A DNA stretch of 64,000 nucleotides from Hydrogenophaga intermedia (GTDB taxonomy: Bacteria; Pseudomonadota; Gammaproteobacteria; Burkholderiales; Burkholderiaceae_C). The stretch is taken from contig NZ_CCAE010000013.1 of the NCBI RefSeq assembly GCF_000723405.1, forward strand, positions 1-64,000, read 5' to 3'. The notes beneath the pieces were generated by a model. The model was not told the DNA's origin. It saw nothing but the letters and a program-made list of their open reading frames with translations, and searched no databases. The translations under genes were made by a program, and so were the position numbers. Each line of letters begins with the position of its first letter. Positions within the stretch are counted from its first letter, which is position 1. Shown here in pieces: positions 1-7,196 of the stretch.

Positions 1-39
1 GAAGACCTTACTCAAGGGGTCAAAGTTGGATGAAAAAAC

Positions 40-927
40 TCAGCTCAGAGGGGTCAGATTTACGTGGAAATCAACACTCTGCTTGCGCCCCGTGCGCATG
101 GCCCCGAAGAGGGCGGCACGTTGCCCTGCGCTCATGCCATGGAATCCCTCTTTCCAGTCCGGAGAACTCACATCCTCAGGCTTCATGCCGCGCGCCAGAA
201 GCGTCAGGCCAAGTTCGGCCGCATCGGTGTGGCGCAAGGTCTCTCGCTTGTTGCCGTACGTGATTTCAGCCAGCAGTTCATCACCACTGGCCGTGACGAC
301 ACAGCACAATTGCAGATGTTCCTGCGCCCGCGCCCCGTGTTCGCGCGCCAGCTTGAGCTCGGGCACTCGCGCCAAGGCCTCGGAGAGACGCTCATCCAGA
401 CGCATCAGGTCGTCGAGCTGCAGCCCTTTGCTTCCGTCGACCGGCAGCAGCTGGGGGCAACCAGGTTCGAACAACGCTTGCTCGTCTTCGAGGGCAACCC
501 ACTCTTGGCCTGGCGGGCAGTGAGTGCGCATCCATTGCTCGCACTCGCGCTGGCGGACAAACTCCGTGTCCTGCTCTAGAACCGGTGTGCTGCCGACGAT
601 CCGAGCGCGCAGATCTTCATCGAAGAGCTCGACGAGGTCCTCGAAATCGAAGACCTCGCGCCAAGAGCTCGAGATGACCACCTCCAGTCGAGGGTGGCGT
701 CGCATCGACTTCTGCAAATGCGGCAAGGCCGTGAACTTCTCGGCGCCTGGGGCACGGCGATGCAGCACGCCATCAACATCCAGGAACAGCGTGACGTCGC
801 CCCTCGGCGAAATTGAAACTGACAATGTCTTGCCCACGTGCGACTCGGTCGTTGATGCGTTCAGAGCGACACAGACTATCGAATCGAGCCTACAAAAACA
901 ATGGTGACCATTTATGGGACGAAGCAA
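40..927 (-). CDS. HAD-like phosphatase-fold protein (HAD_SAK type), island cargo
   Basis: Up to 295 aa. The N-terminal half has HAD motifs: motif I FLDVDGVL (D50, D52 counting from the most upstream ATG), VISSSWR at about 85-90 as motif II, and WVALED (143-148) then PVDG (162-165) as the late acidic motif. This resembles the HAD domain found in Swiss Army Knife RNA-repair proteins. The C-terminal half (about 170-295) is unrecognised. The start is uncertain: the first 30 residues look unlike the family, and a GTG at 835-837 or a TTG further in is as plausible. The last residues run into a GGGGTCAGA-type repeat at the window edge, so the original C-terminus may be altered. Substrate is unknown; a role in nucleic-acid repair or defence is only a guess from the family. 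Confidence 0.6.
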   Translation of the reverse strand: MLRPINGHHCFCRLDSIVCVALNASTTESHVGKTLSVSISPRGDVTLFLDVDGVLHRRAPGAEKFTALPHLQKSMRRHPRLEVVISSSWREVFDFEDLVELFDEDLRARIVGSTPVLEQDTEFVRQRECEQWMRTHCPPGQEWVALEDEQALFEPGCPQLLPVDGSKGLQLDDLMRLDERLSEALARVPELKLAREHGARAQEHLQLCCVVTASGDELLAEITYGNKRETLRHTDAAELGLTLLARGMKPEDVSSPDWKEGFHGMSAGQRAALFGAMRTGRKQSVDFHVNLTPLS

Positions 928-1413
928 GGTGACCGTCTTTGGGAAAGTCGATGGGAGTTGACCCGATCCCGTGGAATAGACTCATTCATTCCTTGCCGAA
1001 ATCTGCATCTGGCCCGGCCATGGGCTTCGCCTTCTGCATCGCCATTCGCCGCTTAGGCCGTGGGCTTCAAGGGTGGGATGGCCGCACGCTTACTCCGGAC
1101 AAGATGAGCAAGATCTGGCGCGTTAAGCCGGTCGGAGGCACTGAGCGCAGAGGCAAACATACACAGATGTGCCACGAAGACTGAATCGAAACACCGGTAC
1201 CTACGAAGTGTGGCTCAAGATGTGGGCGGCAGCGACGACACTCTCGCGCAACTACCCGGTTGGCACGAACATCAGAATCCAGGCGGAGCTGTCAGACCGG
1301 TAGCTCAGACACCGGAGCCGCGCCGGCGGCTGGATCTTGGCTGCGGAATCTTGCCCCAGACGTAGTGCGCAAGCAAGCCCTTCGCATGTCGACCGCCGAC
1401 GTCGGCAGGAGCA
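928..1413. other. Non-coding or decayed gap inside the island
   Basis: 486 bases with only short open frames on both strands. None has a ribosome binding site, family resemblance or coding bias I can support. The segment separates the HAD cargo gene from the end of the recombinase operon, and both neighbours read leftwards. It could hold the promoter of the HAD gene or remnants of earlier cargo. I see no tRNA, clear terminator or inverted repeat. Confidence 0.4.
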
Positions 1414-1812
1414 TCATCGAAGGAGGACTACTCTTCGATCGGCTGCGGTAGCCCTTAGAGTCTTGTTCTTCAGTAGCAGTACCTCGTTGATGCTTGCCAG
1501 CTTCGCGATGCGCTCCTCGGCATCGCTGAGATGTTGTCTGAGCTGCCGGTTTCTCTCAAGGGCTTCCTTCAGTTGGCTCTGTTTGAGATCGCGCTGCTGG
1601 CGGCTTGACTTCGCGAGCTTCGTCCGGATCACCTCCGCAACGGCTGGGTAGTGATTGTGAATCAGCGCCGGCGTCACGCCGGCCTCACGGGCAACCGCTG
1701 AAACGCTCAGCTTCATCGCCTTGGTATGCGAGCGTCCACGCTCGATACGGTAGATGGCCAGGGTCAGTTCCTTCTCGCGCGTCTTGGCGCTCTTGCGCTG
1801 CGTGCTGGTCAT
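1414..1812 (-). CDS. GinD/TnpC-like small DNA-binding protein of the recombination operon
   Basis: 132 aa and strongly basic. Residues about 35-60 (SAVAREAGVTPALIHNHYP) read as a TetR-like helix-turn-helix, and about 70-120 is a charged heptad-rich helix ending in an asparagine/leucine segment, consistent with a coiled coil. Its ATG overlaps the stop of the upstream recombinase (ATGA at 1809-1812). Proteins of this kind close the Tn554 (TnpC) and GInt (GinD) operons, where they are needed for efficient or oriented recombination. Position, size and coupling support that role here. The last codons before the stop are the least certain part. Confidence 0.75.
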   Translation of the reverse strand: MTSTQRKSAKTREKELTLAIYRIERGRSHTKAMKLSVSAVAREAGVTPALIHNHYPAVAEVIRTKLAKSSRQQRDLKQSQLKEALERNRQLRQHLSDAEERIAKLASINEVLLLKNKTLRATAADRRVVLLR

Positions 1813-3719
1813 GCTGGGATGGGCTCCAATGGGTCGAGGCCCAAGGTGGCGAGCACGCTTCGGCAGCGTTCAAGATCGCGCGCGACGCGCTTACGACCTC
1901 CTTCGCCGATGTCCACACAGTCCTCAAGAGCCTTGAGTTGTTTGAAGAGGCCAACATGGATCGGGGCATGGCGACGGCTGATCACAGCGTTGTTGCAGCC
2001 ATCGCCGCACCGGGTCGGATCGATGTCGTTGCCCTCGCAAAGGTTATCGTCTGCAGTGCACCACGCGTGGCCATTGCTGCGGATCGCGGTGCTCGACGCG
2101 ATGGAGCGGATCATATGCGCATGGTCCTTGAATAGCGTGATGTTCTCTTCCCGATCGCGCCAGGCCACGAGATTGGCGCCGTAGCCACCGGCTAGCGGCT
2201 CCGTCTTGCTTAGCCATTCTGCTACAACCCGCTCCTTGATGAGATCGTATTCCTCTTCGATCTCAAGGTAGAGCGCCTGCTCCTGAGATTCGTTAAGACC
2301 ATATCCAAGTGTCATATCGAGCGACCAGTGCTTGAAATGCTCCTTGAGATAACGCAGGTCTCCGAAGCGGCTGCGGGCCGCATAGTTAGCGAACTTGCGT
2401 CGGAACTGATGTGAAGCAAGCCTCCAAGTAGATCCGCATGCCTTCGCGAATCTCTTGAGGTTCACGTTTGTCTGTGTCATCGAAAGAGTCCGAACCTCGT
2501 TCTTCTTGATTGAGGCGACCCCGACGAATATGGCGCCGACATGCTCTTGCGCCTCTGCAATGCGTGGATCGGCCGAGTTGGCAGCTCGGAGCTCTTCGAT
2601 CTGCGCCGCGAGCCGAGCTTGAAGGGGCGCGGCCCATCGATCCATGATCCGAAGCGCTGTCACTGCGACCTCTGGGATCATCCATTCGGTCGCTCCTACG
2701 TCAGTCTTCGTAGAAGTTGATCGCATCCACCAATAGCGCTCTCCGTGATCATCGATCGTGCTGTATGTCGCATTCGATCGAAGGAAGGCAAGCTCATGAT
2801 TGCGGCAACCGCTCAAGCCGGCCACAACGACATAACAGGCCGTCCGAACGTCGATTAGGGCCGTCTCCAGCGCGCCAAACCCCTCTGACCAACCAAGCTT
2901 GCGAAGCACTCGATTCGTTCGGTCCGTAACCCTTCCACCGCGTCCGCGATATTGCGGCTTAGCTATCTCGTCCCTTATGTCGAGAAGTTGCCCAGCGGAT
3001 TCGACGATGCTCCAGGCCTTCTGAAAAAAAACCTCAAAGACCTCGTCGCTCATGAGCGGTGTCGTATTTCCGGTACTGCGGCGCGACTTCTTTTCCCACG
3101 CTATCTGATGCGCCGAAGTATCGGGCCAAGGATGTTGAAGCATGCGGTCGTCCGTAAACTGGCTGAGCTCATAGATCAGCTCGACCGCGGCCAGTCGGTG
3201 GCGAATTGTTGCCCGGGACAACCCGGCACCGGACGTCGAGCTCGACGTTTTTCCCCTTCCGCCTCTTCCTCCCCTAGATTTGCTTTTAGTCAAACATGCT
3301 TGCTTGTACGACGAGCACACTAGGGGGGTGATCCCAGCCAAGTTCCTGACCCCCAAATCAAAGGCGTGTTGCAGGAAATGTGCGAGGTACCTGAAAGCTG
3401 ATACCACGGTTGCCGCTGCGGGAGGTTTGCGCCCCGGGCGACCTCTGCGCTTGAGCCGATACATCGCGGCCTTAACCGTCGCACGGAATGGCTCTGGGAT
3501 TGCTGCGTAGTCCATCGCCGTTTGGTTCTTGGTCGTATTCGTTGGGGATCCCGTAGTCCACCAAACATCGTCGCCATACCTGCTGATGACTACCCAAACT
3601 CCGTCGACCTCCCGCATCGAAACTATCAGCGCATCACGATTCTCGTTGCTTAGCCCTTTGACGGACGTCGGTTGCCCGAGCATTTGCACTCGATGATCCA
3701 AGATCTGAACTGCTGTCAT
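1809..3719 (-). CDS. GinC-like tyrosine recombinase with C-terminal Cys cluster
   Basis: 636 aa, long for the family. The full catalytic set is visible: R306 (GLSGCR), K338 (STSTK), H437-x-x-R440 (SHQFR), H464 and nucleophile Y473 (H-N8-Y spacing as expected). An N-terminal SAM-like core-binding region spans about 70-200. After the catalytic domain comes a tail with four cysteines, C554, C561, C571 and C575, which could bind zinc. The start codon overlaps the stop of the upstream recombinase by ATGA at 3716-3719. Probable role: strand exchange for integration and excision of the island together with the two upstream recombinases. Confidence 0.85.
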   Translation of the reverse strand: MTAVQILDHRVQMLGQPTSVKGLSNENRDALIVSMREVDGVWVVISRYGDDVWWTTGSPTNTTKNQTAMDYAAIPEPFRATVKAAMYRLKRRGRPGRKPPAAATVVSAFRYLAHFLQHAFDLGVRNLAGITPLVCSSYKQACLTKSKSRGGRGGRGKTSSSTSGAGLSRATIRHRLAAVELIYELSQFTDDRMLQHPWPDTSAHQIAWEKKSRRSTGNTTPLMSDEVFEVFFQKAWSIVESAGQLLDIRDEIAKPQYRGRGGRVTDRTNRVLRKLGWSEGFGALETALIDVRTACYVVVAGLSGCRNHELAFLRSNATYSTIDDHGERYWWMRSTSTKTDVGATEWMIPEVAVTALRIMDRWAAPLQARLAAQIEELRAANSADPRIAEAQEHVGAIFVGVASIKKNEVRTLSMTQTNVNLKRFAKACGSTWRLASHQFRRKFANYAARSRFGDLRYLKEHFKHWSLDMTLGYGLNESQEQALYLEIEEEYDLIKERVVAEWLSKTEPLAGGYGANLVAWRDREENITLFKDHAHMIRSIASSTAIRSNGHAWCTADDNLCEGNDIDPTRCGDGCNNAVISRRHAPIHVGLFKQLKALEDCVDIGEGGRKRVARDLERCRSVLATLGLDPLEPIPA

Positions 3720-5398
3720 GACGTTCCTGCAAGGTCAGCGATGATCGTGTCGCCTCGCCAAAAGGGGTGAGGGTCGACTCGCGCGCGCTCCCGCTCTCTG
3801 TCGACTATCGACTCCACGAAGACCCCACGTGCAAGTCCAATTGCGACTACATCTCGTTCGATCAGCCGCACGATATGCGCGAACTGTCGCCTCCAGCGTT
3901 CAGGAGCAATGCGCGCGCGCTCGCGAAGCACGCGCCAGTAGAAGCTGAAGAGGCGATACAGATCGTCGCCAGTGACGACGTAGTTGCGACAGCGCAAGCA
4001 ATTCAGAAAGCTCATGCACACGCTGCCGTTCTTCTTCGGCGCGTAATCACCATGCTTGTTGTCGGAACACCGGCCGACGGGCGTTCGCTCGGTTGCCCCA
4101 AGGGTGTTCGTCAAGAGCTCCTGTACTAGGGCCGATCCCATGAACTTCCAATTTCTTTGGCTATCTTCTCCGGGCTGCAGGTAGTTGGCCATCGTGACGT
4201 TCACGGTGTCGCCTGCAGCAATGGCCGTAGACGCGACGTCACCGTCCAAGATTTCATAGATCCGATTCACAAACGTCTTGCGCAATCGACTAACGTTGAT
4301 ACGCATGGGCTTGCCATCTGCGTCCAGCAGATTGAATCGCTTCACAAGGAGGCGTACTGCACGCGACAAAGTCTCCTCGGTTAAGACACTTACTGCGCCG
4401 GCATGGCCTACCCCTCGCGACCCTGTTCGCATGCGATAGAGCCATACGCGGTCTTCAAACCCCTCAGGAGCTTCGTTCCTCAACCGGTCTGAGAGTTCGA
4501 TAACTCTTCTGACCAACGCAGCTACCGTTGGGCGCACGGTCGGCAGGGATTCGACTACCTGATGTTCCGTCTTGATGGCCGCTTTACTCGTCGAATGCCC
4601 GCGGCGTTTGTAGAGCACAAGGAATAGGGTATCGGCCTTCGGATGTGAGCGCAGGCAATCGGGCTTCATCTCCAAAAGGGGCCACGTGTTCCGACCGGTG
4701 TGGAGGGCGATGATTAGTAGCGCGTAGGCTAGCAACTCAGAGGTGGGCTCGATGTCGTTGGAGAAGATCGGCATCACAGCCTCCTTTACCGCCCTCGAGA
4801 AAGCGGTTCGATCTGCCTTTGACAGAGGGCGCGCCGTCTTGTGATTGTTATGCACGCCAGGAAAAGGATTGCGGGGAAAGGTGGCGTTGTCGCCTGCGTG
4901 AATCTCATGTATCAAGCCGCGATTGCATAGGGCCCTGAGAACGGCTTTGAGCGCGTTATAGGTGCTCTTCTGCGTAGATGTTTCAGTGCCCGCGTCACGC
5001 AGGAACTCCAAGTAGCCATCAATGACCTGGCGGTTGATGTCCGCCAGGGCCAGATCTCGGTCCGTGGCGACCGTGAGAAACGTGAGATAGCGGAAGAACG
5101 TCCTCAAACCCCGGACGCAGTAGGTCTGTACCGTTGCCTCGGTCACCTCGCTGTCCTGATCGTCCAAGAACCGCGCAATTTGCATGTGGCATGCGTAGAC
5201 AACCTGATCGATTCTTGTGCCATACCACTCGCGAAAATCAAACCGATCAGTGCCGATACCGATTGTGGAGAACGTCACCACTGTGTTGGCCGGTGGGATC
5301 TCTCCTGAAGGCACCACGATGATCCCTGACGGGGACCGGAAGTGCTCGACACGGGGGATGCTGAGGTCCGTCTTTATGAAAACTTTGCGCTTGGTCAT
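3716..5398 (-). CDS. GinB-like tyrosine recombinase with a divergent active site
   Basis: 560 aa. An N-terminal core-binding region (about 60-165) precedes a catalytic-like domain. R236 (HTGRNTW), a lysine near 264-265, R373 and Y406 (MANY) can be placed. The H-x-x-R histidine is replaced by serine (S370 in VSRLR), and the histidine nine residues before the tyrosine is aspartate (D397). The tail has C444 and then C461, C467 and C470 (CLRC), again zinc-like, followed by a conserved-looking aromatic stretch. Its start overlaps the upstream recombinase stop (TGATG at 5396-5400). Tyrosine recombinases lacking a histidine can stay active, so the substitutions do not prove inactivity, but they suggest a specialised or partly structural role in the complex. 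Confidence 0.8.
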   Translation of the reverse strand: MTKRKVFIKTDLSIPRVEHFRSPSGIIVVPSGEIPPANTVVTFSTIGIGTDRFDFREWYGTRIDQVVYACHMQIARFLDDQDSEVTEATVQTYCVRGLRTFFRYLTFLTVATDRDLALADINRQVIDGYLEFLRDAGTETSTQKSTYNALKAVLRALCNRGLIHEIHAGDNATFPRNPFPGVHNNHKTARPLSKADRTAFSRAVKEAVMPIFSNDIEPTSELLAYALLIIALHTGRNTWPLLEMKPDCLRSHPKADTLFLVLYKRRGHSTSKAAIKTEHQVVESLPTVRPTVAALVRRVIELSDRLRNEAPEGFEDRVWLYRMRTGSRGVGHAGAVSVLTEETLSRAVRLLVKRFNLLDADGKPMRINVSRLRKTFVNRIYEILDGDVASTAIAAGDTVNVTMANYLQPGEDSQRNWKFMGSALVQELLTNTLGATERTPVGRCSDNKHGDYAPKKNGSVCMSFLNCLRCRNYVVTGDDLYRLFSFYWRVLRERARIAPERWRRQFAHIVRLIERDVVAIGLARGVFVESIVDRERERARVDPHPFWRGDTIIADLAGTS

Positions 5399-6558
5399 CA
5401 GGGTTGGGTCCCGTTCGCCCAGTCGTTGAGTTCGTCGTCGTACGCCAGCACGGCATCATCGGCCAGTTCGTTAACCAGATGAAGATAGATCATGGTTGTG
5501 TTGATCGATGCATGGCCGAGTTGCTTTTGTAGGAAGACCAAGGGCTCGATCCGGTTATCCCCGCGGTGCCTCTGCATCGCCACCAAGGTATGTGTCGCAT
5601 ACGTGTGGCGCAGCATGTGAGGATGCGTCTTGATCTTGGCCCGCTCTCCAACCTTGCGCACCATCGCCTCAATGCCCTGGCCATCAGCCGCCCAAGTCAG
5701 TCCCTCTTGGTTCAAGAACAAAGGCGCCTGCGTTTCACCGGTAAGAGAAGCCCTCTCGCCTCGCCAATGGACGGCATAGTGGTGGAGAGCTTCCATTAGC
5801 CGTCGGCTGACGATAATGGTCCGTTTGACGCTCCCCTTGGTCTTCATGCCGGATCCGTCCTGCGGATCGAGAACTACTCTGACGTTTCGCTCACTGGTGC
5901 TCCTGCGGCGTGGGTCGAAGACGTACGCGAGAGGAAAGGTGGCAAGCTCTTCTCGGCGCAGGCCGCTCTGGAGTGCCATGCGAATGATCATGTGATGGTG
6001 AGGGTTGCTTGCCGCCGCCAGAAGTGATTTGGTCTGGTCCTTGGTCAGGAACTTAGGCAGCGTCTTATGCATTCGGGGCATCACGGATCGCACACTCTTG
6101 GTGCCTCCAGACGCATTCAAGTGCTGCAGGAATCCACCGGGCCGACGGATGCCTCGCCGTTCCTCTATTCGAAACGGAAGCGTGCTGATCCAGCTCTCCC
6201 GCTGCGCGAACTCATAGAACTCGCAGATGTACATAAGGCGCTGCCGGACCGTGTTGCGCGAGAGCTTCGCGACTTCGAAGCAATAGTCACGGTAGGCGGC
6301 GACCAATGTCTTGTCCTCACCGCGGTCGACGTCGTTCCAGCGAAGCTCGTGAGCCTCCAGGAACGAGAAATAGTCGTACAGGGCCCGTCCGGTGGACGGC
6401 CAGGACTTCTGCGAGCCTATGCTTCCCCTGGACAGGTAGTAGCGCAGGAATTCATTGGCCTCCCAGCAACTGCCCATGTCCTCCCAGAGCAAGATTGGGA
6501 AGCCTGGTCTCGGCCGACCTGCCAGCTTGAAGTCTTCCGTCGCATAGATCAGGTGCAT
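5398..6558 (-). CDS. GinA-like tyrosine recombinase, canonical active site
   Basis: 386 aa from the chosen ATG. Catalytic residues are canonical: R201 (SGLRREEL), a lysine near 239-241, H314-x-x-R317 (HMLRHTYATH), H349 (LGHASINTT) and Y358. The core-binding domain spans about 20-125. The start was chosen because its ATG overlaps the stop of the small upstream gene as TGATG (6556-6560); the open frame runs further upstream but that part would lie wholly inside the neighbouring gene. It is the first recombinase in the operon and the one nearest the island border, as in GInts. It is probably the main catalytic subunit for insertion into comM. Confidence 0.85.
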   Translation of the reverse strand: MHLIYATEDFKLAGRPRPGFPILLWEDMGSCWEANEFLRYYLSRGSIGSQKSWPSTGRALYDYFSFLEAHELRWNDVDRGEDKTLVAAYRDYCFEVAKLSRNTVRQRLMYICEFYEFAQRESWISTLPFRIEERRGIRRPGGFLQHLNASGGTKSVRSVMPRMHKTLPKFLTKDQTKSLLAAASNPHHHMIIRMALQSGLRREELATFPLAYVFDPRRRSTSERNVRVVLDPQDGSGMKTKGSVKRTIIVSRRLMEALHHYAVHWRGERASLTGETQAPLFLNQEGLTWAADGQGIEAMVRKVGERAKIKTHPHMLRHTYATHTLVAMQRHRGDNRIEPLVFLQKQLGHASINTTMIYLHLVNELADDAVLAYDDELNDWANGTQP

Positions 6559-6863
6559 CAGAGCCCTTTGCTGCGTAAAAGCTGGGCTGCTTGCTTGAAG
6601 CCGACGCCATGGAGGTGCATCGCGAGGTCGAGTGCACCACCGCCGCCTCGGTTGGCTCTGGTGTCCCAAAACTTCGAACCCGTACAGAGTAGCTCGAACT
6701 CTCGCGACCCGGCGTTGATGTGCCACCTGATTGACACTTGACCCGATCGGGGCACGAAAGAGGCGTCCTGCTTCGCATAGTTCGCGAGGGACGCCAGCAC
6801 GTCGACGCTTGGGAGAGCTCGCCACCTCTCCAGTTCAATGTTATCCACAGACCTCCGACCCAC
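6558..6863 (-). CDS. Small protein resembling the N-terminal domain of mobile-element primases (DUF3991-like)
   Basis: 101 aa with a GTG start preceded by GGGAGGG at about 5 nt. The segment VSIRWHIN...FELLCTGSKFWDTRANRGGGGALDLAMHL resembles the zinc-finger-like N-terminal module of DUF3991/toprim primases from conjugative elements (glycine-rich loop, then ALDL and a helix), but the toprim part is absent. It is the first gene of the recombinase operon and is coupled to the next gene by TGATG, so it is unlikely to be a random remnant. It may be a DNA-binding accessory, or a truncated primase co-opted as leader gene. The family match is from memory of the pattern and is moderate. Confidence 0.6.
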   Translation of the reverse strand: MGRRSVDNIELERWRALPSVDVLASLANYAKQDASFVPRSGQVSIRWHINAGSREFELLCTGSKFWDTRANRGGGGALDLAMHLHGVGFKQAAQLLRSKGL

Positions 6864-6893
6864 AGGTTCCCTCCCTGACCCCTCCCGCTACTC

Positions 6894-6906
6894 GTCTCTA
6901 CGAGAC
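6894..6906. repeat. Short perfect inverted repeat upstream of the recombinase operon
   Basis: GTCTC-TAC-GAGAC lies about 31 bases upstream of the GTG of the first island gene and about 45 bases inside the island border. Two copies of AAAACG also occur at 6913-6918 and 6946-6951, the second touching the comM junction. These could be recombinase arm sites or an operator for the operon, but they are short enough to be chance. Confidence 0.3.
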
Positions 6907-6949
6907 TCCTGGAAAACGGAAAGAATCTAACAGTTCTTAGACCGTAAAA

Positions 6950-7196
6950 CGAATCGGCCGGAGTCCTTGGGCAGGTCGGCCGGCGCCAGGTTCACGGTGA
7001 TGCGCTGGCTGTGGGGAAACTCCAGCCCGCTGTTGACGATGGCCGCGCGCACGCGCTCGCGCGCCTCCTTCACCTCGGTGTCGGCCAGGCCCACCAGCGT
7101 GAAGCTGGGCAGGCCGTTGGCCAGGTGAACTTCCACGCTCACGGGCCGGGCGGCCAGCCCCTGCAGCGCGCGACTGTGCACGTGGGCCAGCGCCAT
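6950..7196 (-). pseudogene. comM: 5' fragment of comM (yifB), split by the island
   Basis: Start ATG at 7194-7196 with GGGAGA upstream. The first about 82 codons match ComM/YifB, the Mg-chelatase-like AAA+ helicase that aids branch migration during natural transformation: VHSRALQGL, VEVHLANGLPSFTLVGL, EVKEARERVRAA and ADLPKDSGRF. In intact homologues GRF is followed by DLPIAL; here the frame turns into unrelated codons and stops at about 6927. The whole catalytic part (Walker motifs, chelatase domain) is missing from the window. The gene is therefore interrupted at a highly conserved protein-coding site by the island to its left. Confidence 0.9.

Follow-up and report, generated by a model that had tools for sequence, protein, structure and literature searches.

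What does a fifth gene do at the head of a recombinase operon? The question is raised by contig C13 of Hydrogenophaga intermedia (NZ_CCAE010000013.1; assembly of 5.29 Mb in 124 contigs), whose first 64,000 bases, here called the window, contain five mutually overlapping minus-strand genes (positions 6863–1414) that sit within comM and encode a 101-aa protein (orf101), three recombinase-type proteins, and a small helix-turn-helix (HTH) protein. This region forms the left end of a mobile element that is site-specific, carries a recombinase trio, and has integrated into comM. It is named here a GInt/SE-like recombinase-trio element, SE denoting the strand-biased circularizing integrative elements originally discovered in Vibrio (PMC10214605).

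The new part is the fifth gene, orf101, together with its hairpin site. No title or abstract beginning mentioning a fifth gene before recombinase trios was found in the literature, but because an unnamed protein is not searchable, its absence from print does not follow. The passages of the literature considered here leave open how SE, GInt, and Tn554-type elements move, that is, the roles of a single-stranded intermediate, of copy-out, and of the maker of the second strand. A priming-type module joined to a recombinase operon would make the second-strand step testable and would link trio elements to plasmid replication. Replication genes within an element of this kind reportedly have a precedent in the primase-helicase of SCCmec.

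orf101 and its hairpin site

The gene orf101 (6558–6863, minus strand) begins with a GTG codon behind GGGAGGG and is coupled in front of the recombinase genes, as stated in the initial annotation, which called its product primase-like. Among the PDB structures listed, the predicted fold of the protein is best matched, with a modest Z score, by the zinc-binding domain of DnaG primase (PF01807; 2au3 and 1d0q), other folds being possible, and the region of the GGGG-hydrophobic helix is alike in both by eye. Searches of the PDB with phmmer and with a profile returned nothing useful. Unlike the DnaG domain, however, orf101 is a stand-alone protein of about 100 aa without conserved cysteine ligands; neither alignment A1 nor A4 has a cysteine in its invariant or nearly invariant columns. 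The proposed primase likeness concerns the predicted fold and does not extend to the zinc ligands. In plasmid records, members of the family are mostly labeled “hypothetical” or left unannotated.

Upstream of orf101, the window contains the hairpin GTCTC-GTA-GAGAC followed by GAGTAGC (6893–6887; entire site 6887–6906, minus strand). The same arrangement, often a perfect hairpin with a stem of 5–8 bp and a short loop and with GAGTAGC directly after it, precedes orf101 in other loci (designated by L numbers), at distances from the start codon that range from 23 nt in the window to about 200 nt in L177. GAGTAGC is present on the coding strand, between −400 and +140 of the open reading frame (ORF), at 92 of 100 orf101 ORFs (excluding L063, which duplicates the window, and counting the split orf101 of L114 twice); on the other strand, it is present at only one of the 100, and control windows of the same loci contain it in 184 of 5782 cases. 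Among the eight ORFs scored as lacking a site, two (L039 and L092) have it just outside the stretch used, the rest being L117, L121, L127, L133, L150, and L158.

Counted without choosing sites for their stems, a perfect stem of at least 5 bp lies directly 5′ of GAGTAGC at 54 of 85 unique sites (29 sites have none), whereas the same count averages 0.46 and never exceeds 3 in 200 letter shuffles. Pairs 2 to 5 of the 54 perfect stems are represented by 3, 4, 4, and 4 Watson-Crick types, respectively; the MAFFT alignment A3, which is almost gap-free and out of register for unequal stems, was not used for pair counts. An invariant GAGTAGC beside a variable but pairing stem is typical of structured RNA leaders, and both the position of the site, which precedes the start codon on the coding strand of almost every recombinase locus, and the coupling of the operon genes would suit a leader that is bound in the mRNA by the product of orf101 or by a host factor and so sets the expression of the operon by autoregulation. 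This chief alternative is nevertheless rather unlikely. Some plasmid-type loci possess inverted or extra copies of the site without orf101 behind them, and the top fold match of orf101, at its modest Z score, is a domain by which a primase reads DNA. It is also weak evidence against a leader that no Rfam family matched the site, either in window positions 6500–7100 and six loci at E-value thresholds or in six sources at gathering thresholds; weak listings fell below the gathering scores, and the matches at gathering were other RNAs.

A scan of the window and of all loci from L035 on located 108 hairpin-GAGTAGC sites, 97 of them beside orf101 and on its strand. Among the remaining 11 are copies that lie inverted behind orf101 (L051, L156, and L157), extra direct copies (L038, L156, and L157), and sites on the opposite strand only (L121 and L158); some of those left look like chance matches. 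No coding-strand GAGTAGC was found in front of the first gene of the 20 trios without orf101 that were checked. In a GMT (gamma-mobile-trio) locus without orf101, the sequence GAGTAGCCGGCAAAGG (L187:1441, minus strand) lies opposite the GmtY strand, near the start of the gene, and may be a chance match or a lone site.

Distribution beside recombinases and on plasmids

The fifth gene is not a local oddity. Among 80 loci, which are the best of 276 by similarity to the protein of the window and therefore lean towards its type, orf101 heads recombinase operons in 71, mostly in Burkholderiales. It is followed directly by a relative of recombinase 1 in 57 loci (profile E < 1e-10), by GmtY in nine (GMT operons), and by other recombinase operons in four (L094, L119, L122 after a gap, and L130); one locus that ends at a contig edge (L133) is counted within the 71. 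Nine loci belong to none of these classes, including L134, which has a recombinase trio nearby on the other strand. At 90% identity, the 100 ORFs form 66 groups, comprising 39 of the recombinase-1 type, 8 of the GMT type, 4 with other recombinases, and 15 with none.

A reverse test started from recombinase-2 matches in plasmids (164 records matched, 18 looked at). Seven of its 11 distinct Burkholderiales operons carry orf101 (L048, L052, L053, L061, L062, L189, and L194; L048 and L052 were obtained through orf101 but also appear among the recombinase-2 matches, as H67 and H36), three lack both the gene and the site (L190, L191, and L192), and one, on plasmid pBMUL01 of Burkholderia multivorans (L193:1950–2210), retains a GAGTAGC remnant before recombinase 1 but no recognizable orf101. 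The gene is absent from seven gammaproteobacterial plasmid operons (L054–L060), from five operons in other orders of the same GTDB class (L171, which is close, and L172–L175, which are distant), and from five GMT loci of a phylum-wide sample (L184–L188; four from the same class and one from another, four of them over the NCBIfam cut-off). It is missing, too, from an operon of the same genus (L045), although the 5′ end of this operon is damaged.

From this pattern of presence and absence, the orf101 module appears to be an accessory that is frequent in Burkholderiales and has been joined to several recombinase families. The existence of several trios without it, including the published GInt and SE elements, would agree also with a mere passenger, a captured fragment of a plasmid replicon that is kept by linkage and has no role in the element. 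That the module is only a passenger is improbable, given that orf101 precedes the recombinases of three or more operon families, that 51 of the 66 clusters have it in this place, and that its site is conserved.

Plasmid-type loci number 14 (L038, L040–L042, L050, L051, L154, L156, L157, L160, and L176–L179). A stand-alone orf101 follows rep genes with PF03090/PriCT_1 domains in L041, L051, and L156 and an annotated replication protein, itself behind par genes, in L178 and L179; in L176, the same place is taken by a hypothetical gene, and in the other loci the gene in front is merely in the rep position. A second, inverted site occurs in three of the 14 (L051, L156, and L157). At the plasmid sites, GAGTAGC continues with GCAAG and a second hairpin carrying GTTATCCAC, which we take to be near a DnaA box. 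On a Nitrosomonas stercoris plasmid (L038:4728–5480, and L182), two direct copies of the stretch comprising site and second hairpin, 718 bp apart, flank orf101. In the IncP-6 plasmids pCOL-1 and p10265-KPC, a gene termed orf1 beside repA is described as disrupted, and a unit that ends in TTTGAGTA is reported to occur 12 times in tandem in the gap between repA and orf1 of pCOL-1 (PMC4785139).

The plasmid loci also bear on another alternative, in which orf101 would act as an accessory factor for recombination or its directionality and would bind the hairpin near attL as double-stranded DNA. The site is indeed only 43–62 bp from the left end of the element in the window (6949 versus 6906–6887), and orf101 is coupled to recombinase 1. 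The presence of gene and site beside plasmid rep genes without trios, however, would be left unexplained, as would the primase-like fold, and this explanation appears distinctly unlikely.

At the left ends of other orf101 elements (L048, L062, L052, L053, L099, L108, and L110), the genes upstream of the site often resemble DNA-repair genes (umuD/umuC, SRAP-type, Y-family polymerase), as judged from annotations for L048 and L062 and by eye from translations for the other loci. The element of Polaromonas sp. P1-6 (L048:8992–14334) is small, lies between umuD and a Y-family polymerase gene, and has its third recombinase gene in pieces. Genes for a MerR-type regulator (PF13411, E 1.7e-05) and a dCTP deaminase-like protein (PF22769, E 8.9e-30) are located near the right end in L010 (11863–14955).

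A candidate start of second-strand synthesis

In the model proposed for SE elements, a single-strand bridge must be replicated, and circles are seen mainly in a nicked double-stranded form; the word primase is absent from the main text of that publication (PMC10214605). The best mechanism for the element in the window, put forward tentatively and with a little less than an even chance of being correct, is that the orf101 protein and the hairpin start second-strand synthesis on a single-stranded intermediate. Recombinases 1 and 3 would cut and join one strand, assisted by the degenerate recombinase 2 and the small protein, to yield, as in the SE model, a bridge or circle of single-stranded DNA. 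There, orf101 may bind hairpin-GAGTAGC on the exposed coding strand, much as the zinc-binding domain of DnaG reads the template of the primase, and may recruit the host primase or replisome. With the second strand made, the intermediate would become a double-stranded circle that re-integrates.

A strand-start device would best explain the combination of a likeness to the template-reading domain of DnaG, a conserved hairpin, rep genes in plasmids, and recombinase trios in islands. The inverted site pairs in some plasmids and the single orientation in islands also fit such a device, although the plasmid count is small (3 of 14). Two points weigh against it: SE elements and pGInt0 work without orf101, and the IncP-6 gene orf1, if it corresponds to orf101 as its position would suggest, is dispensable there. 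Viewed more broadly and with further reserve, this might be a “copy-out” element with its own second-strand origin, whose single-strand initiation system, a stand-alone protein resembling the DnaG template domain plus hairpin-GAGTAGC, is a module common to plasmid replicons and several trio families. The pairing of orf101 with the hairpin suggests that such elements may bring their own start site for copying the circular form, and its description would add a small protein family and a DNA or RNA site without a matching Rfam family.

The trio in comM and its known relatives

The genes overlap throughout as TGATG or ATGA, in agreement with the translational coupling claimed in the initial annotation. 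Recombinase 1 (5398–6558, minus strand, as are all genes of the operon; 386 aa; PF00589) starts with an ATG that overlaps the orf101 stop codon as TGATG and has a complete R-HxxR-H-Y signature, with all boxes present (LQSGLRREE, HPHMLRHT, and LGHASINTTMIY); a 475-aa ORF from 6825 was rejected as too long in favor of the version from the overlapping ATG. Recombinase 2 (3716–5398; 560 aa; TGATG overlap) has a catalytically degenerate tyrosine-recombinase fold and a putative Tfp/GinC-like role; the His of box II is substituted (VSRLRKT), and the Arg of box I is also replaced in 13 of 22 aligned loci. The large recombinase 3 (1809–3719; 636 aa; 4-nt ATGA overlap) keeps R, HxxR, H, and Y (GCRNHE, SHQFRR, KHW, and Y). 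The small HTH plus coiled-coil protein (1414–1812; 132 aa; ATGA overlap) is in the TnpC/GinD/Srap position and has homologs at the operon end in other trio loci; its top Pfam match, TetR_N, is below the cut-off. A tblastn search against phages returned one distant relative only, of recombinase 2. With a recombinase-2 profile, operons were counted in 3 of 399 genomes of an order sample and 6 of 398 of a phylum sample, both counts including the window's own genome and at most three scored candidates per genome.

The 5′ part of comM (6950–7196, minus strand; PF13541 ChlI, E 9.6e-22; NF007365, E 5.6e-30) breaks off after about codon 82, at 6950. The interruption inferred in the initial annotation is confirmed by the 3′ part, which is located on contig C22, the sole match of Mg_chelatase_C (PF13335) in the assembly, and stays in frame as far as the element's opposite end. 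Relatives have comM uninterrupted across the insertion point at 18 of the 19 loci scanned; the search motif for this point was not found in the 19th (L077). Among the loci scanned, only one other element targets comM, at a different point: in a Rhizobacter metagenome-assembled genome (L116:7719–8279), another orf101 element splits the gene about 15 codons earlier than in the window, without recognizable recombinase genes behind.

The middle of the element is unassembled between two contig ends; C13 contains at least 6.9 kb of the element, and C22 adds up to 5 kb if that whole contig end is part of it. Copies of window positions 1–77 lie at or close to the ends of contigs C90, C91, C64, and C19, as well as within C37; a repeated insertion sequence at this position probably caused the assembly to break within the element. 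The far end is AT-rich, with a GC content of 32% over the last 50 bp, 35% over 100 bp, and 48% over 200 bp, compared with 75% in comM. A protein with a HAD domain of the Swiss Army Knife RNA repair type (40–927, minus strand; PF18143, E 6.7e-23) is probable cargo; an 88% identical DNA copy that covers part of its gene (window 344–1059) is present at C11:99383–100102.

Comparison of the two junctions, with boundaries (including the edge of the attL spacer) assigned by hand, revealed different spacers. Apart from minor variation, the empty comM has GGCCG-N-TTCG-ACCTGCC in relatives (18 of 19 loci scanned), attL reads GGCC-GATTCG-TTTTACGGTCTAAGAACTGTTAG, and attR reads AATTAACAGTTAGCAAGGCTATAGAA-CCCCGG-ACCTGCCGATCG. 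The 6-bp attL spacer GATTCG (6955–6950), with which the 5′ part of comM ends, is compatible with the GNTTYG of most relatives (one has GCTACG), but its second place is A, whereas relatives have C, G, or T, never A; the attR spacer CCCCGG is foreign to the empty site. By eye, the left terminal motif of the element (TTTTACGGTCTAAGAACTGTTAG..., 6920–6949, minus strand) matches, imperfectly and in inverted orientation, the right end on C22, which reads TTCTATAGCCTTGCTAACTGTTAA... inward. As drawn, the junctions agree with the exchange of 6-bp spacers reported for SE elements.

Like GInt elements, the island has one end that encodes a small helix-containing protein besides three of recombinase type, an AT-rich other end, and a conserved gene as its place of insertion. 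In GInt, GinA and GinB are catalytic and the third protein, GinC, is degenerate (PMC10214605, PMC5385486); here, the second is degenerate and the third keeps R...HxxR...H...Y, so that the ginABCD order assumed in the initial annotation does not apply. The island differs also in the presence of orf101 in front and in its comM target. GInt elements have imperfect direct repeats of 10–17 nt at attL and attR; here, the spacers GATTCG and CCCCGG differ, and by eye only a short hybrid similarity is seen, which might or might not represent such repeats. SE elements have the gene order intA-tfp-intB-srap, the attB spacer at attL, and a foreign spacer at attR (PMC10214605). They resemble the window in the order of an ordinary, a degenerate, and a large recombinase and a small protein (386/560/636/132 aa), in 6-bp spacers that differ between attL and attR and follow the same rule with the boundaries as drawn, in imperfect inverted ends, and in a coupled operon. 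The gene order matches SE better than GInt, and because a complete, a degenerate, and a large complete recombinase in succession is the SE and not the GInt order, the recombinase-trio island in comM is not filed as GInt. Unlike SE, whose Tfp and Srap homologs are reported in PMC10214605 only from Gammaproteobacteria, it has a host that would be betaproteobacterial by NCBI classification, judging from its genus, and possesses the extra orf101 plus hairpin. An SE operon was not recognized in positions 1–50000 of pAQU1.

RIT and Tn554, considered as alternatives in the initial annotation, both fit worse. RIT elements are described as having three catalytic recombinases of 315–410 aa and 34-bp inverted ends, whereas the recombinases here have 386, 560, and 636 aa and the second is degenerate; Tn554 is described with two recombinases plus TnpC and no middle gene, whereas three recombinase-type genes are present here. 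GMT operons (GmtY/GmtZ/GmtX, NCBIfam) share the orf101 in front in the nine loci mentioned above but differ in their recombinase families and lack orf101 in the five loci sampled. Although orf101 has no catalytic domain, the module can be likened, by description and not by sequence, to ssiA and ssiB of RSF1010, which serve the plasmid's own primase as hairpin start sites, one per strand, beside the replication genes.
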